Shown: one piece after another, positions 33,206-53,623 of the stretch
Layout: each line of letters opens with the position of its first letter
Position numbering within the stretch: position 1 is the first letter of the stretch
Source: Prevotella sp.
Lineage (GTDB): Bacteria; Bacteroidota; Bacteroidia; Bacteroidales; Bacteroidaceae
Direction: 5' to 3'
Assembly (NCBI GenBank): GCA_017483805.1
Contig: JAFUUL010000146.1
Location: forward strand, 1 to 53,623
Length of the DNA stretch: 53,623 nt
The notes under the pieces: generated by a model
What the model saw: the letters and a program-made list of their open reading frames with translations, nothing else
What the model was told of the DNA's origin: nothing
The model's database searches: none
Position numbers and translations under genes: made by a program

Positions 33206-34127
33206 CGTGCTCTCACTCCTCATCGGCTGGGTGCTCGACCTGCTCTTCGGCGACCCCGCCCGTCTGCCCCACCCCGTGGTGTGGTTCGGCCGGGCCATCG
33301 CCTTCTGCGAGCGTCACCTGAACCGCGGCCGTCACCGCCGACTGAAGGGTGCCCTCACCGCCGTCAGCCTCATCACCCTCGGCTTCGCCGTCACCTTTAC
33401 ACTTCTTGCCGTCCTCCCTCCCTTGGGGAGGGTCGGGGTGGGTTCTCTCCTCATTTTCTACTGCCTGGCCGGCACCACACTCATCCGCGAGGTGCGCCAG
33501 GTATTCATGGCCCTCGACCGTTCGCTCGACGAAGGTCGCCGGCAGGTGGCCCGCATCGTGGGCCGCGACACCTCGGAACTCTCAGCACAGGAGGTGCGCA
33601 CGGCGGCCCTCGAGACACTGGCCGAGAACCTGAGCGACGGCGTCATCGCCCCACTCTTCTGGCTGGCCCTGCTGGGCGTGCCCGGCATGATGGCCTATAA
33701 GATGGTCAACACGCTCGACTCGATGATCGGCTACCGCACCGACCGCTACCGCGACTTCGGTTGCTGGGCCGCCCATATCGACGATGTGGCCAACTACATC
33801 CCCGCCCGCCTGACCGCCCTGCTGATGATACTGCCATCACTCATCACTTTCGTCCGCCGTAACGGACGAAACCACGCCTCCCCCAACAGCGGCTACCCCG
33901 AGGCGGCGCTGGCCGGCATCCTCAACTGTCGCTTCGGCGGGCCCCACACCTACTTCGGCCAACTCTTCGACAAGCCCTACATCGGCGACAACGACCGCGA
34001 GTTGACCACCAGCGATATGCGCATCGCCATCCGCGTGAACCGTCGTGCGGAGGTGCTGATGGTCATTCTGACGGCCCTTTCGCTTGGCTGTTTCGAAATA
34101 ATTGCTTATCTTTGTACCCAGATATGA
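33198..34127 (+). CDS. cbiB: Adenosylcobinamide-phosphate synthase CbiB
   Basis: About 309 residues: multispanning membrane protein with the CbiB signature LIGWVLDLLFGDPARLPHPV, TLAENLSDGVIAPLFW, VNTLDSMIGYRTDRY, ARLTALLMIL and GGPHTYFG. It attaches the aminopropanol phosphate made through CobD. The start at 33198 overlaps the cbiP stop. Two repeat-derived insertions are seen: a G-rich palindrome at residues about 72-82 (PPLGRVGVG) and a CATCACT/TTTCGTCCG palindrome at about 213-226. It ends in an ATGA overlap with the next gene. Confidence 0.95.
   Translation: MTNVLSLLIGWVLDLLFGDPARLPHPVVWFGRAIAFCERHLNRGRHRRLKGALTAVSLITLGFAVTFTLLAVLPPLGRVGVGSLLIFYCLAGTTLIREVRQVFMALDRSLDEGRRQVARIVGRDTSELSAQEVRTAALETLAENLSDGVIAPLFWLALLGVPGMMAYKMVNTLDSMIGYRTDRYRDFGCWAAHIDDVANYIPARLTALLMILPSLITFVRRNGRNHASPNSGYPEAALAGILNCRFGGPHTYFGQLFDKPYIGDNDRELTTSDMRIAIRVNRRAEVLMVILTALSLGCFEIIAYLCTQI
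33413..33443. repeat. G-rich palindromic element in cbiB
   Basis: CTCCC-TTG-GGGAG hairpin followed by GGTCGGGGTGGG, a member of the window-wide family (CTCCCC...GGAGGGG plus G-run). It is read in frame as PPLGRVGVG. Confidence 0.8.
33835..33871. repeat. CATCACT doublet plus TTTCGTCCG palindrome in cbiB
   Basis: CATCACT twice (33835-33848), then TTTCGTCCG (33848-33856) mirrored by CGGACGAAA (33863-33871) over 6 bases. It encodes SLITFVRRNGRN in frame. Confidence 0.8.
34107..34114 (+). promoter_or_regulatory. -7 box directly before the cbiH-C gene
   Basis: TATCTTTG ends nine bases before the ATG at 34124, with CTTG 20 bases upstream (34083-34086) as a partial -33 box. It lies inside the end of cbiB. 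Confidence 0.55.
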
Positions 34128-35551
34128 AGAAGATTATCATTGCAGGACTGGGGCCTGGCAGCCCCGAGGACATGACGCCTGCCGTCAGGGAGGCCGTCAA
34201 GGAGGCCGACGTGGTGGTCGGCTATAAGTATTACTTCCAGTTCGTGGAGCCTTACCTGAAGCCTTCGTGCGAATGTATCGACACGGGCATGAAGCGCGAA
34301 CGCGACCGTGCCGAACAGGCCTTCCGTATGGCCGAGACGGGCAAGACTGTCGTGGTCATCTCCAGCGGCGATGCTGGCATCTACGGCATGGCCCCGCTGC
34401 TCTACGAAATGGAGAAGGAACGCGCAGCCCGTTCCGTAGGCGTCGGTATTACCGACGCCATATCCATCGAAGTCCTCCCCGGCATCTCCGCCTTCCAGAA
34501 GGCCGCCTCGCTGCTGGGAGCCCCCATCGGTCACGACCTGTGCATCATCTCCCTCTCCGACCTGATGACACCCTGGCAGGTCATCGAGCGTCGCATCCGG
34601 GCTGCCGCCACAGCCGACTTCGTCACCGCCGTCTACAACCCCAAGTCTCACGGCCGCTACTGGCAACTCTACCGTCTGCAGGAACTCTTCCTGCAGGAGC
34701 GTAGTGCCGACACCCCCGTGGGCTATGTCCGTCAGGCCGGCCGCCCCGAACAGGAGGTCAAACTGACCACTCTCGGTGACCTCGACCCTGAGGACATCGA
34801 TATGTTCACTGTCCTCATCATCGGCAACTCGCAGTCCTACGTGTCCGATGGTCACTTCATCACCCCGCGCGGCTACTACCGTCAGGAAGCCCCTCCCTCG
34901 GAGGGGGTGGGGAGGTCCATCATGATGGAATCTTTCCGCACTATTCTTTCCGAGATGCAACACCCCGATGTACCCCGCTGGCGCCTCTGGCCCCTGCTGC
35001 ACGCCATCCATACGACGGTGGACTTCAGCATGGAAGAGTGCCTATGGATGGACGAACGTGCCACAGAGATCATATATAATAAGGTAAAGGACGGAACCCT
35101 GCGCCATATCGTGACCGACGTGACGATGGCAGCAAGCGGCATCCGCAAGGGAGCACTGGAAAGGTTGGGCATCGAGGTGGATTGCTACATCAACGACCCG
35201 CGGTCGAAGCAGATGGCAGACGAACAAGGCATCACCCGCAGTCAGGCCAGTATGCGGCTGGCTGCCGAAGCGCACCCTGAAGCCCTCTATGTGGTGGGCA
35301 ATGCGCCCACGGCACTCTTCGAGATTTGCGACCTGGTGCGCAAAGGAAAGATGCAGCCCGCAGGCATCATCGCAGCACCAGTGGGGTTTGTTCATGTTTG
35401 CGAAAGCAAGCACGCAGTCAAGACCCTGAAGCAAATCCCCAAGATCATCGTCGAGGGCCGCAAGGGCGGCAGCAACCTCGCCGCCACGCTCTGCAACGCC
35501 ATCCTGACCTTCGACGATGCAGCACAACTCAAACCCGGACGAGACCTGTAG
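34124..35551 (+). CDS. cbiHC: Fusion of cobalt-precorrin-3B C17-methyltransferase (CbiH) and precorrin-8X methylmutase (CbiC)
   Basis: About 475 residues. Residues 1-250 are the CbiH/CobJ methylase (IIIAGLGPGSPEDMTPA, SSGDAGIYGMAPLL, EVLPGISAFQKAASLLGAP, FVTAVYNPKSHGR). Residues about 275-475 are CbiC (HAIHTTVDFSMEECLWM, VTDVTMAASGIRKG, GNAPTALFEI, PVGFVHVCESK with the conserved active-site region). The G-rich palindrome at 34890-34915 encodes APPSEGVGR exactly at the junction. CbiH contracts the ring; CbiC moves a methyl group. It overlaps cbiB by ATGA. Confidence 0.95.
   Translation: MKKIIIAGLGPGSPEDMTPAVREAVKEADVVVGYKYYFQFVEPYLKPSCECIDTGMKRERDRAEQAFRMAETGKTVVVISSGDAGIYGMAPLLYEMEKERAARSVGVGITDAISIEVLPGISAFQKAASLLGAPIGHDLCIISLSDLMTPWQVIERRIRAAATADFVTAVYNPKSHGRYWQLYRLQELFLQERSADTPVGYVRQAGRPEQEVKLTTLGDLDPEDIDMFTVLIIGNSQSYVSDGHFITPRGYYRQEAPPSEGVGRSIMMESFRTILSEMQHPDVPRWRLWPLLHAIHTTVDFSMEECLWMDERATEIIYNKVKDGTLRHIVTDVTMAASGIRKGALERLGIEVDCYINDPRSKQMADEQGITRSQASMRLAAEAHPEALYVVGNAPTALFEICDLVRKGKMQPAGIIAAPVGFVHVCESKHAVKTLKQIPKIIVEGRKGGSNLAATLCNAILTFDDAAQLKPGRDL
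34890..34915. repeat. G-rich palindromic element at the CbiH-CbiC junction
   Basis: CCCCTCCCTCGGAGGGG followed by GTGGGGAGG, read in frame as APPSEGVGR. Confidence 0.88.
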
Positions 35552-35552
35552 A

Positions 35553-35580
35553 AGTGAAAAGTGAAGAGTGAAGAGTGAAG
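35553..35580 (+). repeat. Heptanucleotide array AGTGAAG between cbiH-C and cbiE-T
   Basis: AGTGAAA then three exact AGTGAAG units, beginning two bases after the cbiH-C stop. It fills part of the 73-base gap, the largest within the cbi block. Confidence 0.9.
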
Positions 35581-35624
35581 AATTTCTTGCCGTGCAAGCG
35601 TCCAAAGGCCGAGCGGCTACCGCT

Positions 35625-36866
35625 ATGAAGTTTATAGTCATAGGCATTACCGACAATCCACAGCCTTGGTTCCCACCCGAGGTTTTGGACATCATCCGCC
35701 AGGGCAGAGTGTTCTCCGGCGGCAAGCGCCACCACGACATCGTCGCCCCCTTGCTGCCTGCCGACAGCCAGTGGATAGACATCACCGTCCCCCTCGACAG
35801 CGTTTTTGAGCAGTATGCCCATCTCCCCCTCTCTTCGGAGGGGGAAGGGGGGAGGCCCATCATCGTCTTCGCTTCCGGCGACCCGCTCTTCTTTGGCTTC
35901 GCCAACACGCTGCGCCGCCAGTTCCCTGATGCCGACATCAGAGTCTACCCCACCTTCAACAGCCTGCAGATGCTGGCCCATCGCCTGCTGCTGCCCTACC
36001 ACGATATGCGCATCGTCTCGCTGACCGGCCGTCCCTGGCCTGAGTTCGACCGCGCCCTCATCGAGAGAACCGAGAAGATTGGCGTCCTGACAGACAAGGA
36101 GCACACCCCTGCCGCCATCGCCCAACGTATGCTGGAGTACGGCTATACCAACTACACCATGCACGTCGGCGAACACCTGGGCCATCCTACAAAAGAACAG
36201 GTGACCACCCTCACTCTCGAAGAAGCCGCCCAGCGCTCCTTCTCGATGCCCAACTGTCTGATTCTTCGTTCTGTATGTTGCGATACCATCGCAACAAAGC
36301 CCTTCGGTCTCCCCGACACCTCCTTCGCCCTGCTCGACGGCCGCGAAAAGATGATCACCAAGATGCCCATCCGCCTCTTGACGCTCCAAGCCCTCGACCT
36401 ACCCCGCCGCCACGTGCTCTGGGACATCGGTTTCTGCACGGGCAGCGTCAGCATCGAGGCGCGCCTGCTGTTCCCCCACCTCGAGGTTCACGCCTTCGAG
36501 ATCCGCCCTGAGTGCGAGGCCATCATCCTCGAAAACGCCCGCCGCCACGGTGCCCCCGGCATCCACATCCACATGGGCGACTTCTGTTCCGTATGTCGCG
36601 ATATCATCGCGACCACCCCACCCCCCGACGCCGTCTTCATCGGCGGCCACGGCGGCCAACTGAAGCACATCATGGCCCAGGTGACGGAAAGCCTGCCCGA
36701 GGGCGGCATCATCGTGATGAACAGCGTCAAGGCCCCCAAAGTGACCACCGACAGCCACCAACTCTGGGACGAGGCCTGCCGCGAACTCGGCCTCCAGCAA
36801 GAGCCGCCTATGAGAGTAGTCATAGACGAACATCATCCAATAGAAATACTAAAAGCTCACAAATGA
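35625..36866 (+). CDS. cbiET: Fusion of precorrin-6Y C5,15-methyltransferase CbiE and C15-methyltransferase/decarboxylase CbiT (CobL-like)
   Basis: About 413 residues. CbiE part (1 to about 205): VIGITDNPQPWFPPEVLDII, GGKRHHDIVAPLL, FASGDPLFFGFANTL and SLTGRPWPEFDRAL. CbiT part (about 235-413): LWDIGFCTGSVSIEARLL (SAM-binding loop), HAFEIRPECEAIILENARRH, VFIGGHGGQLKHIM and IVMNSVKAPKVTTD. Three repeat-derived inserts are in frame: LPLSSEGEGGR (about 67-77) and SVCxDxIAT twice (about 215-224 and 321-330). The ATG at 35625 is chosen over an upstream one inside the heptamer array. Confidence 0.94.
   Translation: MKFIVIGITDNPQPWFPPEVLDIIRQGRVFSGGKRHHDIVAPLLPADSQWIDITVPLDSVFEQYAHLPLSSEGEGGRPIIVFASGDPLFFGFANTLRRQFPDADIRVYPTFNSLQMLAHRLLLPYHDMRIVSLTGRPWPEFDRALIERTEKIGVLTDKEHTPAAIAQRMLEYGYTNYTMHVGEHLGHPTKEQVTTLTLEEAAQRSFSMPNCLILRSVCCDTIATKPFGLPDTSFALLDGREKMITKMPIRLLTLQALDLPRRHVLWDIGFCTGSVSIEARLLFPHLEVHAFEIRPECEAIILENARRHGAPGIHIHMGDFCSVCRDIIATTPPPDAVFIGGHGGQLKHIMAQVTESLPEGGIIVMNSVKAPKVTTDSHQLWDEACRELGLQQEPPMRVVIDEHHPIEILKAHK
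35823..35855. repeat. G-rich palindromic element in cbiE part
   Basis: TCCCCCTCTCTTCGGAGGGGG followed by AAGGGGGGAGG; coding LPLSSEGEGGR. Confidence 0.85.
36269..36296. repeat. SVCxDxIAT palindromic element, copy 1
   Basis: GTTCTGTATG then TTGCGAT-ACC-ATCGCAA. It is 24 of 28 identical to the copy at 36586-36613 and is read in frame as SVCCDTIAT. Confidence 0.88.
36586..36613. repeat. SVCxDxIAT palindromic element, copy 2
   Basis: GTTCCGTATG then GTCGCGAT-ATC-ATCGCGAC partly overlapping; same frame as copy 1, read as SVCRDIIAT within the CbiT domain. The substitutions keep the stem paired (TTGCGAT/ATCGCAA versus TCGCGAT/ATCGCGA). Confidence 0.88.
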
Positions 36867-38677
36867 AGATAGCCATCATCCCCATCAACGAAGCCGGTAG
36901 CACCATTGCCGCCACCCTGCAGTCCGCCCTTACCGTAAGCGGCGATTCTGTCGCCGTCATCCTGCCCCGCACCGACGTCACCACCCGCTGGCACGACTTC
37001 GATGCCTTCATCTTCATCGGCGCCATGGGCATCTGCGTCCGCACCATCGCCCCTTACATTGAGGACAAGCACTCCGACCCCGCCGTGGTGTGTGTCGACA
37101 GCCTGGGCCGGAACGCCATCTCCGTGCTCTCCGGCCATATCGGTGGAGCCAACGACTTGACGCGGCACATCGCCACCATCCTGGGGGCCCATGAGGTCAT
37201 CACCACTCAGAGCGACAATGCCGGCCTCTGGGCCCTCGACACGCTGGAGAAGCGTTTCGACTGGCCCGTCGCCAGCGACATAGAAGACATGAACGACTGC
37301 ATCTTTGCCTTCGTCAACCGCCAACCTACGGCCCTGCTGCTCGAGGCCCGCGACGAGGGCACCGACTACCTCGAAGCCACCAAGCCCGACCACGTCACCA
37401 TCATCCGCGACATCAGCGAGGCCGACCCCCGTAAATACAAACTTCTCATCATCGTCTCGCCCTACATCCGCCACTCGCCGGAGGGCTTGCTCAAACTCCA
37501 CTTCGTGCCGATGGTGGGTACCATCGGCTTCGGCCTGGCTCACCATCCCGACGACTACGAGTGCATCTACGACGAGATTGACGAGGCCTTCGCCCAGCGC
37601 GGCATTCTGCCCTGCTCCCACCGCTACTGCACCATCGACGTAAAACAAGACGAAGAATTCGTGGAACTCCTCAGAGACGAATACGACGAGCAGGTGACCT
37701 TCTTCACTGCCGAGCAACTGGCTGCCGTCGACGTGCCCAACCCCAGCGACACCGTCCTGAAACACGTGGGCACCCCCAGCGTCTGCGAGGCCGCCGCCAT
37801 CCTCGGTTCCAACAACGGCCGACTCATCATCCCCAAGGTGAAAGGCAAAAACTGGACCGCCGCCCTCGCCATCGCCCCCTCCCACCTCCGTACTCCCCTC
37901 CAGTCGGAGGGGTCGGGGGAGGCTCACATCGAAATCGTCGGTGCCGGCCCCGGCGACCCCGACCTGGTCAGCGTCCGTGGCCGCAAGATGCTGGAGCGCG
38001 CCGACCTGATTCTCTATGCCGGTTCCCTCGTTCCCAAGGCCCTCACCGAGTGCCACAAGCCGGGTGCCACCGTCCGCTCATCGGCCGACATGACCCTCGA
38101 AGAGCAATGTGCGCTGATGAAGCAGTTCTACGACCAGGGCAAATTCATTGTCCGCCTCCACACCGGTGACCCCTGCATCTTCGGAGCCATTCAGGAGCAG
38201 ATGGCCTTCTTCGACCGCGAGGGCATGTCGTACCACATCACCCCCGGCATCTCCTCATTCCTGGCCGCCGCTGCCGAGTTGCAGAGCCAGTTCACCATCC
38301 CCGAGCGTTGCCAGACCATCATCCTCACCCGAGGCGAAGGCCGCACGCCGATGCCTGAGAAAGAGAAATTGCACCTGCTGGCCCGCTCGCAGAGCACCAT
38401 GTGCATCTTCCTCTCGGCCGCCATCGTCGACGACGTGCAGCGCGAACTCTTGCAGGAATATCCCGAGGACACGCCCGTGGCCGCCTGCTACCATCTCACC
38501 TGGCCCGACCAGCGCATCTATCGCGGTCAACTGAAGGACTTGGCCCGTATCGTCCATGAGAACAACCTCACCCTCACCACCATGCTCGTGGTGGGCGAGG
38601 CCATCGACAACCGCGAAGGGCTCTCCGATCTCTACGACAAGCACTTCACCCACCTTTTCCGAATAGGCGAAGCATGA
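36863..38677 (+). CDS. cbiGF: Fusion of cobalt-precorrin-5A hydrolase CbiG and cobalt-precorrin-4 C11-methyltransferase CbiF
   Basis: 604 residues from ATG 36863, which overlaps the cbiE-T stop. CbiG (1 to about 340): IIPINEAGSTIAATLQS, FIGAMGICVRTIAPY, SVLSGHIGGANDLTRHIA and EAAAILGSNNGRLI. CbiF (about 355-604): IVGAGPGDPDLVSVRGRKML, LYAGSLVPKALTECHKPGA, RLHTGDPCIFGAIQEQM and PGISSFLAAAAELQSQFT. The G-rich palindrome at 37892-37922 encodes TPLQSEGSGEA exactly between the two enzymes. CbiF methylates C11; CbiG opens the ring lactone and releases acetaldehyde. Confidence 0.96.
   Translation: MKIAIIPINEAGSTIAATLQSALTVSGDSVAVILPRTDVTTRWHDFDAFIFIGAMGICVRTIAPYIEDKHSDPAVVCVDSLGRNAISVLSGHIGGANDLTRHIATILGAHEVITTQSDNAGLWALDTLEKRFDWPVASDIEDMNDCIFAFVNRQPTALLLEARDEGTDYLEATKPDHVTIIRDISEADPRKYKLLIIVSPYIRHSPEGLLKLHFVPMVGTIGFGLAHHPDDYECIYDEIDEAFAQRGILPCSHRYCTIDVKQDEEFVELLRDEYDEQVTFFTAEQLAAVDVPNPSDTVLKHVGTPSVCEAAAILGSNNGRLIIPKVKGKNWTAALAIAPSHLRTPLQSEGSGEAHIEIVGAGPGDPDLVSVRGRKMLERADLILYAGSLVPKALTECHKPGATVRSSADMTLEEQCALMKQFYDQGKFIVRLHTGDPCIFGAIQEQMAFFDREGMSYHITPGISSFLAAAAELQSQFTIPERCQTIILTRGEGRTPMPEKEKLHLLARSQSTMCIFLSAAIVDDVQRELLQEYPEDTPVAACYHLTWPDQRIYRGQLKDLARIVHENNLTLTTMLVVGEAIDNREGLSDLYDKHFTHLFRIGEA
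37892..37922. repeat. G-rich palindromic element at the CbiG-CbiF junction
   Basis: ACTCCCCTCCAGTCGGAGGG followed by GTCGGGGGAGG, read in frame as TPLQSEGSGEA. Confidence 0.9.
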
Positions 38678-40440
38678 TACTGGTACTGGGCGGAACCACC
38701 GAGGGCCGCAAGACGATAGAGACGCTGGAAGAGGGCGGAGGCACTTTCTTCTACAGCACCAAGACGGGTGAGCAGGACGTGACGCTGCACCACGGACAGC
38801 GCATCGACGGGGCGATGGACCGCGAGGCCATGCTCCGCTTCTGCAGCGAGCACGACATCCGGCTTATCATCGATGCCGCCCACCCCTTTGCCCGTGTGCT
38901 CCACGAGACGGTGGCCAGCGTGGCAGCGACGCTGCAGATTCCGGCCATCCGCTACGAACGCATCTATCCGCCGCGCGATGCCGACATCACCTGGATTGAC
39001 GACTATCAGGACATTCCGCGCGACATCCACACCCTGCTGGCCACCACTGGCGTGCAGAGCATCGCCCGACTGAAGCCGCTCGAGGCGGAGGGCATGAAGA
39101 TATACTATCGCATCCTGCCACGCGAGTCGTCCATCGCATTGGCCAGAAAGCAGGGAGCCACCGACGAACAACTCTGCTACTACGAGGATGGCAACAGCAT
39201 CGACATCGACGCCGAGGCCATCCTGCTCAAGGAGAGCGGCCTGTCTGGCGGATTCCCCGAGAAGGTGGAGGCAGCCAGACAACGCGGCATGCGCATCATC
39301 GCCCTGAAACGCCCGCAACTGATGACGGCAGGCTGTCAACTGTCAACCGTCAACGGCCCCTACGGATTGAGAAGAGCGGTGGAGCGACTGCTGCCCGACT
39401 TCTACCCCCTGCACAGCGGCCTGACCACCGGCACCTGCGCCACTGCGGCAGCCATTGCCGCCACGCTGCAGTTGCTGAAGCAAGAGTGTCCGAAAGAAGT
39501 GGATGTGTTGTTGCCCAACGGCGAGACCATCCCTGTGCCTGTCGGTTATGGTGACGGCTATGCCTACTGTATCAAGGACAGCGGCGACGACCCTGACGTG
39601 ACGAAGGGCATCGAAGTAAGGGTGAGCGTTCAGCCAAGCGATACTTTCGAGATTCTTGGTGGCGAGGGCGTGGGCACATTCACCCTGCCCGGCTTCGACT
39701 TCCCGCCCGGCGAGCCTGCCATCAACAAAGGGCCGCGCGAGATGATTCGCCAGAATATAGAAAGACTGACTACTCCCCTCCATACAGGGAGGGGGCGGGG
39801 GTGGGTCTTCACGATTTCCGTTCCCGGCGGCGAGGAGATAGCCCGTCGCACCTTCAACCCCCGCCTGGGCATCGAGGGCGGCATCAGCATCATCGGCGTG
39901 AGCGGTATCATCAAGCCCTTCAGCGAGGAGGCGTTCGTAGACAGCATCCGCAAGTGCATGGAGGTAGCCAAGGCCAGCGGCACAGAGCGTGTTGTGATCA
40001 ATAGCGGTGCCAAGAGCGAGCGTTTCGTGCGCAGTCTCTACCCCGACCTGCCCCGTCAGGCCTTCGTGGAATATGGCAACTACATCGGCGAGACGCTCCG
40101 CATGGCCAACGAACTGGGCTTCCGCAAGGTCACCCTCGGCGTCATGCTCGGCAAGGCCGTCAAGTTGGCCGAGGGTCAACTGGACACGCACAGCCGCAAG
40201 GGCACCATGAACCTCGCCTTCATCCAGCAGATGCTGGATGAAATTAATTCTAAATTCAAAATTACAAATTATAAATTGACTCTCGCCCGCGAACTCTGGG
40301 AACGACTATCCAAACAGGAAGCCGACGCCTTCGCCCGCGTGGTCATCCGCCACTGTCTGCAGCACTGCCAGCCCTTGCTGCCAGACGGCGAATTAACTAT
40401 TCTGCTGATTGGCGACGACGGAACAATACACTCGCTATGA
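38674..40440 (+). CDS. cbiJD: Fusion of precorrin-6A reductase CbiJ and cobalt-precorrin-5B C1-methyltransferase CbiD
   Basis: 588 residues; ATGA overlap with cbiG-F. CbiJ (1 to about 235): LVLGGTTEGRKTIETL, LIIDAAHPFARVLHETV, GGFPEKVEAARQRGMRIIAL. CbiD (about 243-588): HSGLTTGTCATAAAIAATLQ, GGEGVGTFTLPGFDFPPGE, NPRLGIEGGISIIGVSGII and LGVMLGKAVKLAEGQLDTHS. Three repeat-derived segments are in frame: CQLSTVN (three heptamers, about 220-227, at the junction), TPLHTGRGRGW (about 367-378) and INSKFKITNYKL (AATT heptamers, about 525-535). Its end overlaps the convergent permease gene by 44 bases. Confidence 0.95.
   Translation: MILVLGGTTEGRKTIETLEEGGGTFFYSTKTGEQDVTLHHGQRIDGAMDREAMLRFCSEHDIRLIIDAAHPFARVLHETVASVAATLQIPAIRYERIYPPRDADITWIDDYQDIPRDIHTLLATTGVQSIARLKPLEAEGMKIYYRILPRESSIALARKQGATDEQLCYYEDGNSIDIDAEAILLKESGLSGGFPEKVEAARQRGMRIIALKRPQLMTAGCQLSTVNGPYGLRRAVERLLPDFYPLHSGLTTGTCATAAAIAATLQLLKQECPKEVDVLLPNGETIPVPVGYGDGYAYCIKDSGDDPDVTKGIEVRVSVQPSDTFEILGGEGVGTFTLPGFDFPPGEPAINKGPREMIRQNIERLTTPLHTGRGRGWVFTISVPGGEEIARRTFNPRLGIEGGISIIGVSGIIKPFSEEAFVDSIRKCMEVAKASGTERVVINSGAKSERFVRSLYPDLPRQAFVEYGNYIGETLRMANELGFRKVTLGVMLGKAVKLAEGQLDTHSRKGTMNLAFIQQMLDEINSKFKITNYKLTLARELWERLSKQEADAFARVVIRHCLQHCQPLLPDGELTILLIGDDGTIHSL
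39333..39353. repeat. Heptanucleotide array CTGTCAA at the CbiJ-CbiD junction
   Basis: CTGTCAA, CTGTCAA, CCGTCAA; 21 bases, a multiple of three, so it is read through in frame. Confidence 0.85.
39772..39805. repeat. G-rich palindromic element inside cbiD
   Basis: ACTCCCCTCCATACAGGGAG then GGGGCGGGGGTGGG; coding TPLHTGRGRGW. Confidence 0.88.
40246..40280. repeat. AT-rich heptanucleotide array inside cbiD
   Basis: Five units AATTCTA, AATTCAA, AATTACA, AATTATA and AATTGAC (40246-40280), strikingly AT-rich within GC-rich coding DNA, coding about NSKFKITNYKLT near the CbiD C-terminus. Confidence 0.88.
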
Positions 40441-41431: not shown

Positions 41432-41461
41432 CAGCCCCCCATCCCCCTAACTTAGGGGGCT
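41432..41461 (-). repeat. G-rich palindromic element between btuF-like and btuC-like genes
   Basis: On the minus strand GCCCCCTAAGTTAGGGGG followed by ATGGGGGGCTG, the same hairpin-plus-G-run design as the in-gene elements but with a TAA-TTA core. It fills the 26-base gap and could also act as a weak terminator or mRNA stabiliser. Confidence 0.7.
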
Positions 41462-45436: not shown

Positions 45437-46237
45437 ATGCCTATGCCAAGACAAACTCGGCAACATAGCAGTACTGGTATCTATCATGTGATGCTGAGAG
45501 GCATTAACAGACAAGATATTTTTGAGGCTGCAGAGGACTACTCTCAGTTTCTCCGTATTCTTCATGCCATTACAAATAGGAAGGACGATAAAGGAACACC
45601 CCTTCAGCCACTCTGCACCATCTATGCCTACTGCCTGATGAGCAACCATGTGCATCTCCTTATCAGGGAGAGACTGGAGAGTATCGGAGAGAGTATAAAA
45701 AGGATTGGGGTTGCTTATGCCAGATACTACAATAACAAGTACGAAAGGAATGGACATCTCTTCCAAGACCGCTTTAAGAGCGAGCCTGTCGAAAGCATTG
45801 AGTATTTCTTCACCCTGATGCGATACATACACCAAAACCCTGTTAAGTCTGGCCTGACCGTAGAGGTTAGAGACTATCCTTGGAGCAGTTGGCATGAATA
45901 TGAAGGCACACATACGGCTTTTCAAATCTGTGAAACGGCATCGGTTATAAGAAGGCTTGACAGACAGGACCTCTATGAGTTCATAACCATGCCTACCGAA
46001 GACAATATCCTTGACTTTCATGATGAAGGCAAGAACACTTTTACTGATGAAGAAGTAAAAAAGCATATACTTGAGATTTGCGGATTAGAGGTACCAACCG
46101 ACATACAGAAACTTGATAAACGCGAGAGGAACTCTATCTTGAAGAGGCTTTGTGAATATGGCATAACTATCAGGCAGATTTCAAGAATAACAGGAATTAG
46201 TTATGGTGTCATCAACAGAGCAAAAAATGGATCATGA
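45437..46237 (+). CDS. REP-associated tyrosine transposase (Y1/IS200-like, RAYT)
   Basis: 266 residues. HUH nuclease features: TGIYHVMLRGINRQDIFEAA at the start, the metal-binding SNHVHLLI, and the catalytic-tyrosine helix FFTLMRYIHQNPVKSG, with GHLFQDRFKSEPVES between. A C-terminal helix-turn-helix (ITIRQISRITGISYGVINRA) is typical of larger RAYT proteins. It cuts single-stranded DNA at hairpin ends. A genome carrying many short palindromes makes it a candidate for their spread, but the ends of this unit do not match the palindromes seen in the cbi genes. Confidence 0.94.
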   Translation: MPMPRQTRQHSSTGIYHVMLRGINRQDIFEAAEDYSQFLRILHAITNRKDDKGTPLQPLCTIYAYCLMSNHVHLLIRERLESIGESIKRIGVAYARYYNNKYERNGHLFQDRFKSEPVESIEYFFTLMRYIHQNPVKSGLTVEVRDYPWSSWHEYEGTHTAFQICETASVIRRLDRQDLYEFITMPTEDNILDFHDEGKNTFTDEEVKKHILEICGLEVPTDIQKLDKRERNSILKRLCEYGITIRQISRITGISYGVINRAKNGS

Positions 46238-46335
46238 GAACCGTCCCCAATTTTCCGATTTCAAGAATAACAGGAATTAGTTATGGTGTCATCAACAGAG
46301 CAAAAAATGGATCATGAGAACCGTCCCCAATTTTC
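46177..46335 (+). repeat. 79-bp tandem duplication at the RAYT right end
   Basis: 46177-46255 and 46257-46335 are identical. The first copy carries the last 20 codons of the transposase and the terminal repeat; the second is non-coding. Confidence 0.93.
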
Positions 46336-46437: not shown

Positions 46438-46458
46438 TTTTATAGTCATTAAAATAAC

Positions 46459-46493
46459 GGTTCGCCCACGCTCTTGCAGATTGTGAGCGAACC
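46459..46493. terminator. Weak hairpin after the 940-aa MBG gene
   Basis: GGTTCGC (46459-46465) pairs with GCGAACC (46487-46493) over about 21 bases. On the minus strand it is followed by GTTATTTT. It may be a partial terminator between the MBG gene and the peptide gene. Confidence 0.4.
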
Positions 46494-46511
46494 ATAGTTG
46501 TTTAAAGTTTA

Positions 46512-49334
46512 TTACTTAACAAAGACCTTCTTACCATCCTTGATGTAGATACCCTTCTGGGTAGGAGCACTCTGCAGTTTAACACCATTCAGAGTGTACC
46601 AGCCCTCAGCAGCGATTGCCTCGCCTTCAGTGCTGATGCCCTTGATAACAGTTGTGCTACCATCAATCTCCTCAATAAAGATACGAGCCTCCTCAGTAAC
46701 CATCTTGAAGTATCCGGCAGTAGGAACAATCACCAGAGGATCGTTCTTGTCGAAAGAACCCAGACGCTTGATAGCACCAGTCTTGGTCGGAGCAGCATAG
46801 TCATGTCCATAGACATTTGTCGGAGCATAGACGCCATAGAAAGTATTGCCGCGTGGGTCGGTCTCGTCATAAGCAGCACTAGAAATCTTCCTAGAAGTGA
46901 AATAAGTCACTCCACTCAAGTTCAACTTAGAGTTGTCAACTGCAGGAGTTGCTCCCTCTGCAGGAACGTCGGCTTTATAATACTTCACCAGGAAAGGCTG
47001 GTTGGCTTTAATCTCGCCCATCCAGAGTTTCATGTGCAGGTCATTACCAGTATAAGTATCAGCATGGTCTACAATGTTGACAACGGCATAGCCAAAGGCT
47101 GCAGAAATCTCTGTCACACTTGTCTCGAAAGGCAGAACCATAGCCACCCATGTCTCACGAGCAATTTCACGAGAGCCGAAGGTTACATTGACAGTAGTAC
47201 CATTAGCAGCAGTAATAGCACCATTATTATCGGCATCAGTAGCCAGATTAAGAGTTGTTGTAAGGTCGATGACAGTCAGTTTACCTGCCTTTTTAGTAAT
47301 CTTATAGTTTGCAGCAAGTGCTTCCTCATTGGTGAGAGTAACTTCAATACCTTCATCATAGGCAGCATGAGCGACCAACTCACCAATGTGGCCCTCTACA
47401 GAACTTGTTTCAACGGCTGTAGCGAAACCGAGTTTCACTGAAGCCTCATCGTTGATACCAGTACCAGTAGCATCGTTAGCACTTGTCACCAGGCCCTCTA
47501 CGGTATAGTGAGTGCCCAAGGTTGTACCCAAATCGGTAACCTTGTTGCCTGTATACAGTGACTGTTCCTTAGCCGTAATAGTCAAAGTAGCCCTAGTAAT
47601 GACCAACTTAGCAGACTTATAGGAAATAGTGATGCCATTGAACTGAGGCTCTTTATCGAAAGTGATAGCGTAGTTACCAACTGTCTCACCTTCAGCACGG
47701 TTCAAAGCAGCCTTAATCTGAGCATCCATATCCTCAGTGATCACACTGGCCTCGCCAGTGGTCACGCTATAAGTGAGTTCAGGATCTTTCTCACCATAAA
47801 TCTTTACCTGGTTGTCGGCAGCAATGGTCAGCACAGCAGCAGAAATCACAAGTTTCTTGCTGTTGGCATTGCGTACATCAATCACATAGTTACCATTGGC
47901 AGGTGTACCACCTTCCAGTGTCAAGTCATAAGTATCAGCAGCACCAGCAGTGTTGGCAGCAGCCTTAATCAACAAACCAGTGATAACATTAGTTGCGTTA
48001 ACAGTCAGATAATCCTTCACTTTCGACTGGTCAGTAACCTGAGTATAGTCATTATCGGCTGACTGGTATTCCAGTTTCACCAACTCTGCATCACTATTGT
48101 TATCGTCGATGTCAGTATTCTTGAGTGTCCACTCATTTTTCTGAGCATCATCGGTACCGAAGGTTGCGGTCTTGCCATCCAGCAATGTCAACTTCAGTTT
48201 AGCAGGATTGATCTTCAACGTAGCCTTCACGGGAATCACCTCGTAGTTCTTTGCAGTACCGCCAGTCAGAACGATACCATTAGCATAGGTGCCAGCAGCA
48301 AATTGAGCCGTGGTCACTGCAGTAGCAAACGATGCCGTAGGAGCAGCAAACTCACCAGTGAAAACACCTGCCGCAGTTTCATCATTAACGAATTCATCAT
48401 AGTCAATCTCAATGATGCTCGTGTTCAGAGTACCCTGATAGAAAGTCTCAATGGCCTTAGGACGAGCGACAAGGGTAGCCTTTTCAATCACGCCAGTAAT
48501 GCTTCCACCTGTAGCAGGCGTATAGTCATTGTGGTTGTCATCACCAACGACTTTCCACTGCAACTCGTAGTTTTCACCAGCGTCTGTCTTCTTGATATCA
48601 TTATCATTAGCAGCATACCAGTTTGTACCATCTGCAGAGTATTTGAAAGTACCCACATTACCAGCCACGGTACCATCCTTCACCAGTGTCTGAGCCTGGC
48701 CAGTGTATGTAAGACCGCCCTTGGCTGTTGGAGCAGTCACATCTGCTGCAACGATGTTAGCCTTGTTGATGGTGAAGTTCTTAGTGTTAGTACCGCTGTA
48801 GTTGCCAATACCTGTAATGGTGATGGTAGCAATACCTGCATTCGTATTATTGCTATACGAATAGGTAAAGTCCTCACCCTTTTTCAAGGTCACAGCAGGA
48901 GAGGAGCCGATAGTAACAGCGGGTTCCGGAGTATAAGCAGAACCAGTATAGGTCACAGCAGTAACTTCTGCGATTGTTGATCCAGAAATTGAGGTACCGA
49001 TAATCCAGAAACTCAGATAAAATGACTGGCCCTCGTAAGTACCCTTACCAACAATCTTCAGCCAATACTGGCCAGAACCAGAGGTAGACAAAGCAGACGT
49101 TGCCTTCTCTGTCTTCTCCTCACCACTATAGAACTTGTCCTCTACAACGTAATGCGTGTTTTCTGCATAAGCAGGGATACCAGCCGTAGCCCCATCTGCA
49201 ACAGTCACAGTAGGCAGAGTCGATGTTCCATAGTTAATGTTTGCTGCCGTAAACTTGGACTGATCCAAATCTTCAGCCCATCCTGCCAACGGCAAGAGAG
49301 ACAGCAACATCAAAATAAGAAAATGTTTTCTCAT
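46512..49334 (-). CDS. Large secreted MBG-repeat protein with sorting-type C-terminal tail
   Basis: 940 residues: signal peptide (LILMLLSLLPLAGWAED), then repeated beta-rich modules (TYTGSAYTPEPAVTIGSSP, FTYSYSNNTNAGIATITITG, and MBG-type LTIAADNQVKIYGEKDPELT and LTITAKEQSLYTGNKV). A C-terminal domain (RETWVAMVLPFETSVTEISA) resembles the region in the cohesin protein (GQWNTICLPFALTEAQVEEA). The end is GWYTLNGVKLQSAPTQKG then IYIKDGKKVFVK, a type IX sorting-like tail. A surface or secreted adhesin-like protein. It lacks the dockerin present in the 892-aa relative. Promoter at 49453-49483. Confidence 0.87.
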   Translation of the reverse strand: MRKHFLILMLLSLLPLAGWAEDLDQSKFTAANINYGTSTLPTVTVADGATAGIPAYAENTHYVVEDKFYSGEEKTEKATSALSTSGSGQYWLKIVGKGTYEGQSFYLSFWIIGTSISGSTIAEVTAVTYTGSAYTPEPAVTIGSSPAVTLKKGEDFTYSYSNNTNAGIATITITGIGNYSGTNTKNFTINKANIVAADVTAPTAKGGLTYTGQAQTLVKDGTVAGNVGTFKYSADGTNWYAANDNDIKKTDAGENYELQWKVVGDDNHNDYTPATGGSITGVIEKATLVARPKAIETFYQGTLNTSIIEIDYDEFVNDETAAGVFTGEFAAPTASFATAVTTAQFAAGTYANGIVLTGGTAKNYEVIPVKATLKINPAKLKLTLLDGKTATFGTDDAQKNEWTLKNTDIDDNNSDAELVKLEYQSADNDYTQVTDQSKVKDYLTVNATNVITGLLIKAAANTAGAADTYDLTLEGGTPANGNYVIDVRNANSKKLVISAAVLTIAADNQVKIYGEKDPELTYSVTTGEASVITEDMDAQIKAALNRAEGETVGNYAITFDKEPQFNGITISYKSAKLVITRATLTITAKEQSLYTGNKVTDLGTTLGTHYTVEGLVTSANDATGTGINDEASVKLGFATAVETSSVEGHIGELVAHAAYDEGIEVTLTNEEALAANYKITKKAGKLTVIDLTTTLNLATDADNNGAITAANGTTVNVTFGSREIARETWVAMVLPFETSVTEISAAFGYAVVNIVDHADTYTGNDLHMKLWMGEIKANQPFLVKYYKADVPAEGATPAVDNSKLNLSGVTYFTSRKISSAAYDETDPRGNTFYGVYAPTNVYGHDYAAPTKTGAIKRLGSFDKNDPLVIVPTAGYFKMVTEEARIFIEEIDGSTTVIKGISTEGEAIAAEGWYTLNGVKLQSAPTQKGIYIKDGKKVFVK

Positions 49335-49452
49335 AAGTTTTGCTTTTTAAATTGTTAATAAAATGTTTAAATATAAAATAAATTAATGTATAGACACATT
49401 TTTACGACACATTCTTGCGGCCGTCAACGCATGAACAGACCGATTTCGGGTG

Positions 49453-49494
49453 CAAAGATAAACATTAATTCCGAAACGGCAAAGAATTTTAAGA
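49453..49494 (-). promoter_or_regulatory. Promoter of the 940-aa MBG gene (copy A of a duplicated promoter)
   Basis: On the minus strand TTTG (49480-49483) and TATCTTTG (49453-49460), spacer 19. The whole 42-base stretch is nearly identical (one base difference) to 50482-50523. The leader is about 115 bases. Confidence 0.78.
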
Positions 49495-49550
49495 AAAAAT
49501 ATTCCGCAGAGCAAAAAAAATTTGCTTTGCCGCAAGATTAAAGGTTAAAA

Positions 49551-49781
49551 TCAATCGGATTGCGAAGTGGACATCTCCTCACACAAATAGTCATAGATAT
49601 ACTCGGCACTTTGTAAGTAGAGGCCCGTCTTTGCATCAATCAACTTCTGATAGATACGGGAATTATATACCCTGTCAAACGCCTCCAGCAATGGCATCTG
49701 CTTCTCCTCCTGCAAGTAAGAAACCATCGCCTCTACGTCGCAGTTAACAATAAACTGGAACTGGTTCTTTGTTAGTCTCAT
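49551..49781 (-). CDS. Small helical protein, third gene of DUF3791-DUF3990 cassette
   Basis: 76 residues, start MRLTKNQFQFIVNCDVEAMV, then QMPLLEAFDRVYNSRIYQKL and YIYDYLCEEMSTSQSD. It overlaps the DUF3990 stop by ATGA and so belongs to the cassette. It is probably a helical antitoxin or accessory protein; similar small genes accompany DUF3990 genes in Bacteroidales as far as I recall. No enzymatic motif. Confidence 0.75.
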   Translation of the reverse strand: MRLTKNQFQFIVNCDVEAMVSYLQEEKQMPLLEAFDRVYNSRIYQKLIDAKTGLYLQSAEYIYDYLCEEMSTSQSD

Positions 49782-50251
49782 AGCCGTCTTAGTAATTTAA
49801 TGGCTCTCTCCGTACCAAAGAAGTATTGTCTATTCAACTGACGATAGGTTAGTTCTTTAACAAGTGTATCAATGTCTATCAGACGCTGCATATAGAGGTT
49901 TATCTGGAAAACTACGCCATCATCGGCTACCGGGCCGACAACGATATCATAGTCATGCCTGCTCCGCCCACGTGCTTTGCGATTCTGAATGATAAATTCA
50001 GCCCACTCTCGACTCACAGCATCAAAGATCTTAACATTCATCTCCGATGAAACCAAACTATGCTCATCAAATTCATACTCCTGAACAACAGGGGCACCCC
50101 ACCCTTCAAAGTCTGTTCTTCTGATTGCTTGCTCTTGTGCCTGATGGCGAATGTCGGTCAAATAGAACCCCCGCCCGAAATCTTTATTTGGCCGACACTT
50201 GGAAAGAAGGATTCTGTCAAAGTCCGTATTTGTACCATGATATAACTTCAT
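49778..50251 (-). CDS. DUF3990 protein, predicted ADP-ribosyltransferase fold
   Basis: 157 residues from ATG 50251, which overlaps the upstream gene's stop by ATGA (a longer frame starts at 50278). The DUF3990 blocks are all present: KLYHGTNTDFDRILLSK, KDFGRGFYLTDIRHQAQEQA, EWAEFIIQNRK, DYDIVVGPVADDGVVFQINL and a C-terminal QYFFGTERAIKLLRR. YHGT and FGRGFYLT correspond to the NAD-binding elements of ADP-ribosyltransferase-like folds. A toxin role is inferred from fold and from the flanking small genes. Confidence 0.85.
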   Translation of the reverse strand: MKLYHGTNTDFDRILLSKCRPNKDFGRGFYLTDIRHQAQEQAIRRTDFEGWGAPVVQEYEFDEHSLVSSEMNVKIFDAVSREWAEFIIQNRKARGRSRHDYDIVVGPVADDGVVFQINLYMQRLIDIDTLVKELTYRQLNRQYFFGTERAIKLLRRL

Positions 50252-50457
50252 CTGATGCTTCCTCCATGCCTTTGACAATAAATCTTCAAATCGCTGAGGG
50301 CCTGTTCGAGAGATAACTGATGCTCCGCCTCATAGCACTTATCCAAAAAGGCCAGACCGCTATAACGCTTCAGGTACTGGAAAGACATATGGGTTGGCAT
50401 GCCAAACTTCTTGCCAAACTCAACAATGCACATATTGATATATCGTATCTTGCTCAT
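50248..50457 (-). CDS. DUF3791 small protein
   Basis: 69 residues with the DUF3791 pattern: INMCIVEFGKKFGMPTHMSF, QYLKRYSGLAFLDKCYEAEH, LSLEQALSDLKIYCQRHGG. First gene of the three-gene ATGA-coupled cassette with DUF3990. Likely antitoxin or regulatory partner, by position. It is transcribed from the promoter at 50482-50512, giving a leader of about 20 bases. Confidence 0.82.
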   Translation of the reverse strand: MSKIRYINMCIVEFGKKFGMPTHMSFQYLKRYSGLAFLDKCYEAEHQLSLEQALSDLKIYCQRHGGSIR

Positions 50458-50481
50458 ATCCTTCTCTGGCGTTTACTCGGA

Positions 50482-50523
50482 CAAAGATAAACATTAAATC
50501 CGAAACGGCAAAGAATTTTAAGG
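50482..50523 (-). promoter_or_regulatory. Promoter of the DUF3791 cassette (copy B of a duplicated promoter)
   Basis: TTTG (50509-50512) and TATCTTTG (50482-50489) on the minus strand, spacer 19 bases. The same 42-base sequence drives the 940-aa MBG gene 1 kb away. Confidence 0.78.
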
Positions 50524-50569
50524 GAAAAAGAGGGGTAAGGCAAAAAAAATATATTTATTCGACATTTTC

Positions 50570-50601
50570 TTTGGTCTTTTCAAAAAAAAGTAGTACCTTT
50601 G
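50570..50601 (+). promoter_or_regulatory. Promoter of the tRNA pair
   Basis: TTTG (50570-50573), 20 bases, TACCTTTG (50594-50601), 18 bases before tRNA-Val. Confidence 0.8.
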
Positions 50602-50619
50602 CACCCGCATTACAGAAAT

Positions 50620-50693
50620 GTCGGCATAGCTCAGCTGGTTAGAGTATCACCTTGACATGGTGGGGGTCCTTGGTTCGAGTCCAAGTGTCGACA
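50620..50693 (+). tRNA. tRNA-Val(GAC)
   Basis: The acceptor arm GTCGGCA pairs with TGTCGAC, the D-loop has AGCTCAGCTGGTTAGAG, the anticodon loop TTGACAT reads GAC, and the T-arm contains GGTTCGAGTCC. Discriminator A; CCA is not encoded. Confidence 0.95.
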
Positions 50694-50714
50694 CTCCCAA
50701 GAAACAAAAATGAA

Positions 50715-50796
50715 GCGCCTGTGGCGGAATTGGTAGACGCGCTAGACTTAGGATCTAGTATCTCACGATGTGCAGGTTCGAGTCCTGTCAGGCGCA
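50715..50796 (+). tRNA. tRNA-Leu(TAG)
   Basis: The acceptor GCGCCTG pairs with CAGGCGC, the anticodon stem CTAGA/TCTAG encloses CTTAGGA (anticodon TAG), a short variable arm TATCTCACGATG marks a class II tRNA, and the T-arm is GGTTCGAGTCC. Discriminator A. Its 3' end recurs 98 bases downstream. Confidence 0.95.
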
Positions 50797-50896
50797 CTTA
50801 CGTGCTTCTTACTAAACTCTCACCTGCAGCAGGTTCTTTCAGTCGCTTCGCTTTGTGAAAGCGGCAAAGCCGAGCACGAGTCCTGTCAGGCGCACT
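50779..50896 (+). repeat. Direct repeat of tRNA-Leu 3' end (att-like)
   Basis: CGAGTCCTGTCAGGCGCACT at 50779-50798 recurs exactly at 50877-50896. The 78 bases between hold a hairpin and the 20-bp word shared with cbiA. Such a pair is what an integrase leaves at a tRNA, here with almost nothing left inside. Confidence 0.85.
50858..50877 (+). repeat. 20-bp word shared with cbiA
   Basis: AAAGCGGCAAAGCCGAGCAC, identical to 31636-31655. Confidence 0.9.
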
Positions 50897-50914
50897 CAAC
50901 ATAGGAATACATAA

Positions 50915-50957
50915 AGAAAGGCAACCCTTAGGAGCGGGTTGCCTTTCTGCTTTTTTT
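50915..50957. terminator. Terminator of the tRNA operon, shared with convergent SIMPL gene
   Basis: AGAAAGGCAACCC (50915-50927) pairs with GGGTTGCCTTTCT (50936-50948), then seven T. The stop of the convergent gene is at 50956. Confidence 0.93.
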
Positions 50958-51642
50958 AATCGTCGAGCGAATAGGTGACGGTGGTCACCACACGCAGTTT
51001 TTTGATGTAGGGCGTGTTCTCGTCGCGATTGTCAATCTCGAACTGCCCCTGTCCGGCAGTCTGGATCTTGCCCAGTTTGGAGTCGCTGGCCTCAGCGAAC
51101 TGCTCGGCTGTGGCCTGTGCGTTCTTGATGGCCTCGGCCATCATCTCTGGCTTCATCTGCTGGAACGAGGCATACTGATAGTCAGGCAGGCTGGAGTCGA
51201 GGGCAACGCCCTGCTTCAGCAGTTCGGCCTGACGGAAGATGGCGCGGTTCACCTCTTCCACCTTGGTGGTGCTGACCGTGATGGTGGTGGTGACGATATA
51301 GCGGAAGTTCTTCTGATTGTCGCCCCACTCGCGGGCCTCCAGGTCGGAGACGCTGGGCGGGTTGACGGTTATCTCAGAGTCCTCAAGGCCGCTCTGCCTG
51401 AGGAATGCCTTGATGGTCTCGGCCTGCACGTTGATGCGCTCATAAAGCGAGGGCAGGTCGTTGCCGGTCTCCTTGGTACTGATGCTCCAGATCACTTTGT
51501 CGGCGGGTACCTCGCGCTCGGCCAGTCCCTTGACTGTGACCTTGCGATCCTTGTTGGTGAAGTTGTCGATGCCAGCCTTGATGCACCATCCCATGACCAT
51601 CACGCCGACGGCCAGGATTATTGATTCTTTAACTCTACTCAT
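50956..51642 (-). CDS. SIMPL-domain (DUF541) protein
   Basis: 228 residues: one N-terminal membrane/signal helix ([19 protein letters not shown]), then the SIMPL domain with [40 protein letters not shown] and [19 protein letters not shown], and the C-terminal [21 protein letters not shown]. Found in periplasmic or membrane-anchored proteins linked to stress responses; exact function unknown. It lies 33 bases downstream of alaS on the same strand. Confidence 0.92.
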
Positions 51643-51675
51643 ACACCTTATTATATATATAGGAAGAAACAGTTA

Positions 51676-53623
51676 CTAAAGATTGGCCAGTTGGATGACC
51701 TTGTCGACAGCAGCGGAGAGGCCATCGACGCTCTTGCCGCCGGCTGTAGCATAGTGGGGCTGGCCGCCGCCACCGCCCTGAATGAGTTGGGCAGCCTCGC
51801 GCACCATCTGTCCGGCATTCAGGCCGTGATCCTTCACCAGGTCGTCGCTCATCATGATGCTGAGCGTGGGCTTGCCCTGATAGTGGGAGCCGATGACGCA
51901 GAGGAAGGGAGCCTGGACGGCGGCACGCAACTGGAAGACGAGATCCTTGACAGAGGCTGGCGGCATGCCGATGACGCGGGTGATGACGTTGACACCGTTG
52001 ACGGCCTGCACCTCGGTGAGCAGATAGTCCTTGGTGCGCTCCACAGCCTGGGCCTGGAACGACTCTATCTCCTTCTTCATCTGGTCGTGCTCCTCGATAT
52101 ACTTCTGGATGACGCCCTCCAGATCCTTGGCGTTGTTGAAGAACTGCTTGATGGCCTTCAGGTGATCCTCCATCACATACAACAGATCCTCGCACTCGCG
52201 GCCCGTCTTGGCCTCGATGCGGCGGATGCCGGCAGCCACGCTACTCTCAGAGAGGATCTTGAAGAAGCCGATGCGGCCCGTGGACGAGGCATGGACGCCG
52301 CCACAGAACTCGCACGACGGACCGAAGCGCACCACGCGCACCTTGTCGCCATACTTCTCGCCGAAGAGGGCGATGGCGCCCAGTTTCTTGGCCTCGTCGA
52401 AGGGTATATCGCGATGCTCGTCGATGTGGATGTCCTGACGGATCATCTCGTTGACCATACGCTCCACCTGACGCAGTTCCTCGTCGGTGACCTTCTGGAA
52501 GTGGGAGAAGTCGAAGCGCAGGATGTCGGGGCTGACAAACGAGCCCTTCTGCTCCACGTGGTCGCCCAGCACCTGCTTCAGGGCATAGTCGAGCAGGTGG
52601 GTGGCGGTGTGGTTGGCAGCAGAGGCGTCGCGCTTGTCGGTATCGACGCAGGCCATGAAGGGAGCGGTGGGATCCTTGGGCAACTGCTTCACGATATGGA
52701 CGCTCTGTCCGTTCTCGCGCTTGGTGTCGATGACCTCGATGGTCTCGTTCTCGCTGACCAGCACGCCCTGGTCGCCCACCTGTCCGCCCATCTCGCCGTA
52801 GAACGGAGTGTAGTCGAGCACCAGTTCGTAGTACTCCTGCTTCTTCTGGGTGACCTTGCGGTAGCGCAGGATATGGCATTCGTATTCGGTGTAGTCGTAG
52901 CCCACGAACTGCTGCTGAGCCTCCCCCATCCCCTCCGAAGGAGGGGTGTCGTTACCACCATCAGACTCCGAAAGGCACTCCCCTCCTTCGGAGGGGCGGG
53001 GGAGGCTTATCCAGTCGCCGTTTTCCACCTGGGCGGCATTGCGGGCGCGATCCTTCTGCTTCTGCATCTCGACGTTGAACTGCTCTTCGTCGACCGTGAA
53101 GCCTTGCTCGCGACAGATGAGTTCCGTCAGGTCGAGGGGGAAGCCGTAGGTGTCGAAGAGGCGGAAGGCCTGTACACCGTCCAGTTCTGTCTTACCTTCA
53201 GCCTTGAGTTGCTCCATAGCCTTGTCGAGCATAGAGATGCCCTTGTCGAGGGTGCGCAGGAAGGCATCCTCCTCTTCCTTCATCACGCGGGCGATGAGCG
53301 TCTGCTGGGCCTTCAGTTCGGGGAAGGCGTCGCCCATCTCCTCGACGAGCGTGGGCAGCAGCCGATAGAGGAAGGCCTCTTTCTGACCCAGGAAGGTGTA
53401 GGCATAGCGCACGGCACGACGCAAGATGCGACGGATGACGTAGCCGGCCTTGGCGTTAGAGGGCAACTGGCCGTCGGCGATCGAGAAGGCCACGGCACGC
53501 AGGTGGTCGGCGCAGACACGCATGGCGACGTTGATGGCCTCCCCTGTCCCCTCCGAAGGAGGGGTGTCGTTACCACCGTCAGACTCCGAAAGGCACTCCC
53601 CTCCTTCGGAGGGGCGGGGGAGG
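51676..53623 (-). CDS. alaS: Alanine-tRNA ligase, C-terminal two thirds (5' end outside window), with two repeat-derived insertions
   Basis: The frame stays open to base 53622. Recognised parts in order: [20 protein letters not shown] and [15 protein letters not shown] (end of the catalytic/tRNA-binding core), the editing domain with [16 protein letters not shown] and the zinc motif CEFCGGVH, and the C-Ala domain with [18 protein letters not shown]. It charges tRNA-Ala and edits Ser/Gly. Two stretches of about 28-30 residues ([20 protein letters not shown] then PPSEG) at 53539-53623 and 52921-53007 are absent from typical AlaRS and are encoded by palindromic elements. Confidence 0.96.
52921..53007. 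repeat. Composite palindromic element in alaS, copy 1
   Basis: CCTCCCCCATCCCCTCCG...AGGAGGGG (52919-52948) and ACTCCCCTCCTTCGGAGGGG followed by CGGGGGAGG (52978-53007) face each other around a 30-base centre (TGTCGTTACCACCATCAGAC...). It is read through in frame on the minus strand. Confidence 0.93.
53539..53623. repeat. Composite palindromic element in alaS, copy 2
   Basis: Almost identical to 52921-53007 (the centre differs by one base, ACCGTC versus ACCATC; the outer left arm CCTGTCC versus CCCATCC). Same reading frame and same peptide. It runs to the window edge. Confidence 0.92.

Follow-up and report, generated by a model that had tools for sequence, protein, structure and literature searches.

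The window analysed here, a 53,623-nucleotide stretch of contig JAFUUL010000146.1 from a Prevotella sp. draft assembly (GCA_017483805.1), carries short G-rich palindromes in frame at five cob sites and in alaS, which raises the question of how such DNA came to lie inside conserved genes. The palindromes are probably a REP-like dispersed repeat of Prevotella-type bacteria, copies of which moved to new sites, were tolerated in frame in linkers and loops, and were kept. The draft comprises 3.63 Mb in 199 contigs (91.7% complete, 7.2% contamination). The CbiGF protein of this contig is 77–84% identical to those of the 80 best loci of named records, which are mostly Prevotella or Prevotellaceae and come in many cases from ruminants; the identities point to a Prevotella-type member of the Bacteroidales.

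Palindromes in the cob genes and alaS

An earlier, sequence-only reading of this DNA listed eight sites of a single G-rich palindromic design. A G-rich palindrome is present at all eight within a few bases, but the one near 41432 belongs to a separate family. Five are single palindromes on the forward strand of the cob genes, each a covariance-model match. In cbiB (ORF 33147–34127) the palindrome and its G-rich tail occupy 33409–33441 (model match 33412–33441) and read VLPPLGRVGVG in frame. The CbiHC ORF (34112–35551, forward strand, ATG read at 34124) hosts a copy at the CbiH/CbiC junction (34887–34915, EAPPSEGVGR), where relatives are fused without this palindrome. Further copies lie in the CbiE part of the cbiE/T ORF 35568–36866 (35822–35855, LPLSSEGEGGR), in the CbiG/CbiF linker of ORF 36863–38677 (37893–37922, TPLQSEGSGEA) and in the CbiD part of the cbiJ-cbiD ORF 38674–40440 (39773–39805, TPLHTGRGRGW). 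The gene alaS, on the reverse strand, holds the two 86-bp inverted composites that the reading described, at 52920–53005, which adds ~25 residues, and at 53538–53623, with a spacer near-identical to that of the first. The second pair lies at the contig end, and the last base of the contig is the exact end of the pair. As had been claimed, the palindromes leave the reading frame intact at all five cob sites and in alaS, where 648 codons run on the reverse strand with no stop.

The exact hairpin with a 9-base arm has four matches in the window, at two cob sites and in one arm of each alaS pair, against none in 100 shuffles, and the hairpin with its tail has six exact matches, again against none in 100 shuffles. 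The remaining listed sites differ by a few bases. An Rfam search of 33000–53623 returned two tRNAs only.

The palindrome of the other family, CCCCCTAAGTTAGGGGG, is intergenic at 41435–41459 on the reverse strand, and 11 distinct copies were seen in the genome. This second family (the window site and loci L345–L361) has pairs that face inward, the opposite arrangement, and some of its copies fall within long open frames.

Anatomy and folding

Two main subtypes of the G-rich palindrome are seen. One has the outer ends AGAC-TCTCCCC...GGGGAGA-GTCT and the hairpin CCCCTCCC-TCACA-GGGAGGGG; the other has the ends CCTCCCC...GGGGAGG and the hairpin CCCCTCC-NNN-GGAGGGG. Copies are single or form outward-facing inverted pairs, and neighbouring copies no more than 300 bp apart in this genome comprise 37 outward, 1 inward and 5 tandem pairs. 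The unit of the proposed repeat would be a 7–8 bp G/C hairpin with a G-run tail, occurring singly or as an outward inverted pair with a variable spacer. Head-to-head dimers are not predominant in the sample from another genome, G016, with 24 tandem pairs and 1 outward pair. Three G016 loci (L258, L261 and L268) contain same-orientation tandem arrays of palindromes with a spacing of ~44 and ~66 bp, outside long ORFs.

Both alaS pairs fold end to end into a hairpin far better than shuffles (z −6.29 for 52920–53005 and −6.08 for 53538–53623), and for the five cob singles the gain over shuffles is small or nil (z −0.24 to −2.00). No hairpin base pair with both sides changed was found; the arms are therefore shown to be conserved as sequence, not as structure.

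Copy number and in-gene share

Absence of the same palindrome elsewhere in the genome would have refuted the sequence-only reading; it is abundant genome-wide. The strict pattern of hairpin plus tail gives 39 exact matches, a few of which overlap or sit on near-identical contigs, and the reversed control gives none. The covariance-model search that the reading had proposed was run with a model built from 30 copies and yields at least 118 matches at E ≤ 1 and at least 93 at E ≤ 0.01, both lower bounds, as 150 of 837 and 150 of 819 candidates, respectively, were scored. The 118 matches merge into 80 clusters. Near-identical stretches occur on separate contigs of this genome, G000 (C9/C66, C32/C138, C121/C152, C70/C159 and C144/C197), and probably represent assembly redundancy or strain mixture.

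When in-gene is taken to mean an ORF of at least 200 codons with 30 or more codons to either side of the palindrome, 92 of 108 palindromes in this genome are in-gene and 16 are not; this count used 55 loci, with C169:15699 left out and with repeated-context copies and copies less than 150 bases from a locus end dropped. Random 30-mers of the same loci fall in such ORFs in 1762 of 2200 cases (80%), so that palindromes are in-gene about as frequently as random positions. The samples from comparison genomes cover some regions of each, mostly those of the best-ranked matches, and give these shares: 3/59 in G003 (20 regions, 67 matches) and 3/41 in G016 (13 regions, 76 matches), both of the same genus, and 24/35 in G075 (13, 101), 12/28 in G050 (11, 77), 5/13 in G066 (7, 28), 6/19 in G067 (9, 87) and 2/9 in G009 (6, 48). 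Random positions in these samples are in long ORFs in 45–84% of cases. The G+C content is 0.45 in the G003 and G016 samples versus 0.57 here, and higher G+C lengthens chance ORFs.

These shares tell in part against the preferred reading. If copies inserted at random and harmful ones were then lost, intergenic copies should prevail, as they do in G003 and G016; the 85% found in genes here is not accounted for in this way. In the G003 and G016 samples this kind of repeat lies almost entirely outside long genes, and in others mostly in-gene and in frame, a contrast between genomes that makes the entry of repeats into protein genes testable by comparison.

The host genes are varied. All 30 element-bearing ORFs chosen for a Pfam search match families at E ≤ 1e-5, including RNase HII, FGAR-AT (PurL), DnaG, RecG, RsmF, ETF and a sigma factor, and MiaB and AsnRS were named as hosts through solved homologues. 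Kept copies would be translated into Pro/Gly/Ser-rich peptides, which are presumably neutral to the host protein. Avoidance of stop codons was dropped as proof of translation, since the argument is nearly circular: a copy counted inside an ORF has no stop by definition.

Insertion into existing proteins

The best solved homologues of MiaB (7mjv), AsnRS (6pqh) and RecG (1gm5) are gapped at the element or fail to align across it. CbiHC and CbiB gain no net length against the relatives compared; here the element took the place of host residues, or the length was regained through other changes. Conserved residues at the element positions, which the sequence-only reading had named as evidence against it, did not occur among the relatives. 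The alignments and the Pfam-matched hosts support its broader proposal of a repeat family lying in frame in genes at tolerant sites, similar in kind to the Rickettsia palindromic elements.

For AlaRS the alignment with the solved chain breaks over a wider stretch than the element. Among the 56 other genomes with a match, 44 align in two blocks, 11 in one and 1 in three; the two-block matches stop near residue 175 and resume near 200. The AlaRS palindrome insert was found in none of 29 aligned relatives. Several of the one-block relatives are without any insert (e.g. G009 and G047), and others have unrelated inserts (G050, G043 and G056). The two AlaRS palindrome places hold other low-complexity inserts in some species (G043, G050, G056 and G067; L183, L182, L179 and L181).

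The suggestion that insertion bridged formerly separate genes into fusions fails. CbiGF is one frame with a palindrome-free linker in 20 of 20 relatives (G018 is truncated by the end of its contig). CbiHC likewise forms a single frame with no palindrome at the junction in eight of the nine relatives for which junction DNA was examined, the ninth, G013, having another palindrome at the junction. In the DNA of G013 and G053, different palindromes are seen at the same places. That the palindrome created the CbiGF and CbiHC fusions, which hold two of its copies, is accordingly rejected on these sequence comparisons.

Placement at domain junctions holds for CbiH/CbiC and CbiG/CbiF but not for the other in-gene sites, and the palindromes are not confined to such junctions. 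The other sites vary in length or sequence in the alignments and may correspond to loops, probably at the protein surface.

Two of the seven in-gene sites are domain junctions, and the G-rich side of the five cob singles is always in the mRNA (5/5), as might be expected if selection favoured functional mRNA or DNA structures (G-quadruplexes or hairpins) at linkers, translational pausing being one possible role. We consider this highly improbable: both orientations are found in genes, all reading phases are used (14, 2 and 2 of 18 same-strand copies), and relatives are without the element at the same junctions. A G-quadruplex or mRNA function was rejected for want of a consistent orientation.

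Recurrence at the same places

The covariance model finds 58 palindromes in the 80 loci of named records, 56 of which sit in open frames 356 codons or longer; outside the cob genes these frames are open frames only. Both exceptions belong to L387, one palindrome being outside such a frame and the other upstream of the aligned CbiE start. Most of the 58 fall at a small number of places: the CbiGF linker (10 of 80 loci), two positions each in CbiD and CbiE/T, and one in CbiJ. Some CbiHC sites in the named loci were recognised by eye. The place of the CbiE site at 35822–35855 is also occupied in L380, L381, L374 and L371, and that of the CbiD site at 39773–39805 in G022, G066, L400, L396, L407, L410, L401 and L371. 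Orientation at the first CbiD place is minus in 8 of 9 loci, and at the second it is plus in 6 of 6.

Another insertion lies within 10 residues for 9 of 11 insertions in CbiGF, 16 of 18 in CbiJD and 7 of 8 in CbiE/T. Such clustering, which exceeds the random expectation, was reached in 58, 14 and 141 of 20000 random draws, respectively, in a simulation that counted pairs and sister loci once and in which species are not independent. Some named loci and G-numbered genomes are probably the same genomes (L399/G075 and L378/G022). The preferred reading of a tolerated dispersed repeat would account for the recurrence, as the same places may have been hit repeatedly in different species because in-frame copies are tolerated there. 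Palindromes are also carried by named strains, Xylanibacter brevis ATCC 19188 (L429) and Prevotella communis E15-14 (L410, a complete chromosome), so that metagenome assembly is not their cause.

Segments bracketed by palindrome pairs

In GltB two pairs enclose sequence common to relatives. An alternative reading is that inverted pairs delimit exchangeable in-gene segments, the pair and the native coding sequence between them being swapped across species as a short cassette. We hold this possibility to be unlikely. In GltB the 37-codon segment of the first bracket groups exactly the six genomes labelled as bracketed, this genome, G044, G075, G050, G066 and G060 (99/96 support, 100% of 200 bootstrap trees). 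In a 30-row comparison the GltB flanks instead unite G050 and G066 with G049, G007 and G022. By the approximately unbiased (AU) test the bracketed clade is rejected by the flanks (p 3.9e-5), and the clade of the flanks is rejected by the segment (p 0.002). Identity of G066 and G050 to G022 is 0.91–0.96 in the closest flank windows and only 0.65 and 0.58 inside the bracket. Unbracketed relatives also diverge fast inside this segment, however (G022–G007 0.77, G022–G049 0.90), and in G008 the right site is occupied alone. G060, and G050 at its right site, have degenerate copies or ones of a different type, and the bracketed label was assigned after the sequences had been seen.

CbiD, for which trees included 61 of 65 rows with four long-branch rows left out, gives a similar but less complete picture. 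A clade of the nine double-bracketed rows is rejected by the flanks (p 1e-4) and not by the segment (p 0.30), and for the seven rows of one type the values are 0.025 and 0.65; yet the segment tree does not recover the bracketed group unaided (6 changes). L407 and L410 are identical across the CbiD bracket, and the same two loci share long tracts elsewhere too. In a TPR protein, as read from the peptides, the sites are also occupied singly: only the left in G057, G009 and G048, only the right in G022, and both only here.

Loci L363–L442 share 263 exact tracts of 50 to 626 bp between loci of less than 92% background identity. Exact tracts are thus common, which implies frequent short-tract recombination in this group. 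The longest of the 89 exact tracts in pairs below 86% background identity (199 bp, L367–L396) covers the bracket, but short exact tracts free of palindromes are common, a model palindrome being present in both members in 3 of 263.

The GltB bracketed segment has a history different from that of its flanks, and CbiD supports this in part. The general proposition, that inverted pairs at protein loops mark the ends of short coding cassettes of ~35–80 residues that pass between Prevotella-type species while the remainder of the gene does not, is doubtful. If it is true, a REP-like repeat would serve as a joint at which segments of housekeeping enzymes are shuffled; if the GltB pattern is general, such repeats would also shape the recombination of enzyme segments between species.

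Relation to known repeats and the search for a mobiliser

Intragenic repeats are established for the GTAG/CGTC REPs (Di Nocera et al. 2013, PMC3733652). In the excerpted account of that study most REPs are intergenic and some lie in genes, tRNA synthetase and DNA repair genes being among the hosts, and REPs occur singly or as head-to-head dimers with spacers mostly of 20–100 bp and often variable. The palindromes described here resemble this account as short dispersed palindromes, present in many copies, some in genes with synthetase and DNA-repair hosts, and either single or in head-to-head pairs, with the latter predominant in this genome. They differ from it in lying mostly in long ORFs here, and in this respect the mainly extragenic copies of the G003 and G016 samples are closer to REPs. 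By eye, the GTAG/GTGG or CGTC tag is not seen at the 5' foot of the hairpin; the outer ends are AGAC-TCTCCCC or CCTCCCC, and the tail strand 5' of the hairpin is mostly [CT]ACT.

Rickettsia palindromic elements (RPEs) are ~150 bp long according to the available portions of two reports (PMC10969869, PMC3733652). Compared by description, both are palindromic DNA in frame inside unrelated genes, here conserved genes whose homologues are without the element. Unlike RPEs, the present copies are ~30 bp when single and mostly 80–130 bp as pairs, are G-rich and belong to Bacteroidales. No account of such elements was found among titles of the literature on Prevotella. Judged from these comparisons, the family appears to be a variant of the intragenic REP/RPE kind that is mostly intragenic here, is without the defining tags and, within the loci tested, has no linked transposase.

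Some mobilising activity would have placed the copies at new sites. Excerpts of PMC6006769 describe in-frame REP insertions within tnpA genes of subclass 2.4, which is abundant in Bacteroidetes among others, and the inverted pairs recall the REPIN/RAYT systems covered there. In facing outward with variable spacers, the pairs agree with the head-to-head dimers in the excerpted account of known REPs (PMC3733652), and a divergent Y1 family, P0002, is present in 8 of 9 genomes of the genus with at least 15 palindromes versus 5 of 15 with fewer. Mobilisation of the palindromes as REPINs by a HuH transposase of this genome (RAYT/TnpA-REP) is nonetheless improbable. Among 31 Y1_Tnp (PF01797) loci searched by regular expression within ~1.5 kb, a palindrome occurs at one, 1.1 kb away. 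The 21 P0002-type loci, with one gene represented twice, contain no strong model match and two weak ones (E 0.06 and 0.72). G003 has 67 palindromes and no match to PF01797 or P0002, and the GT[AG]G or CGTC tag is absent at the REP position. A TnpA-REP gene flanked by these palindromes, as in REPIN/RAYT systems, was not found among the Y1_Tnp and P0002-type loci scanned.

The window does contain a Y1_Tnp (HuH transposase) ORF at 45437–46237, flanked by inverted AATTGGGGACGGTTCTC-type repeats, and a repeat of ~80 bases of its 3' end follows shortly downstream. A divergent HuH transposase-like gene (L032 1252–2463, G000:C13) carries an in-frame low-complexity tandem insert in the catalytic domain and is flanked by similar stretches of ~45 bp, of which the downstream one lies where the following gene ends.
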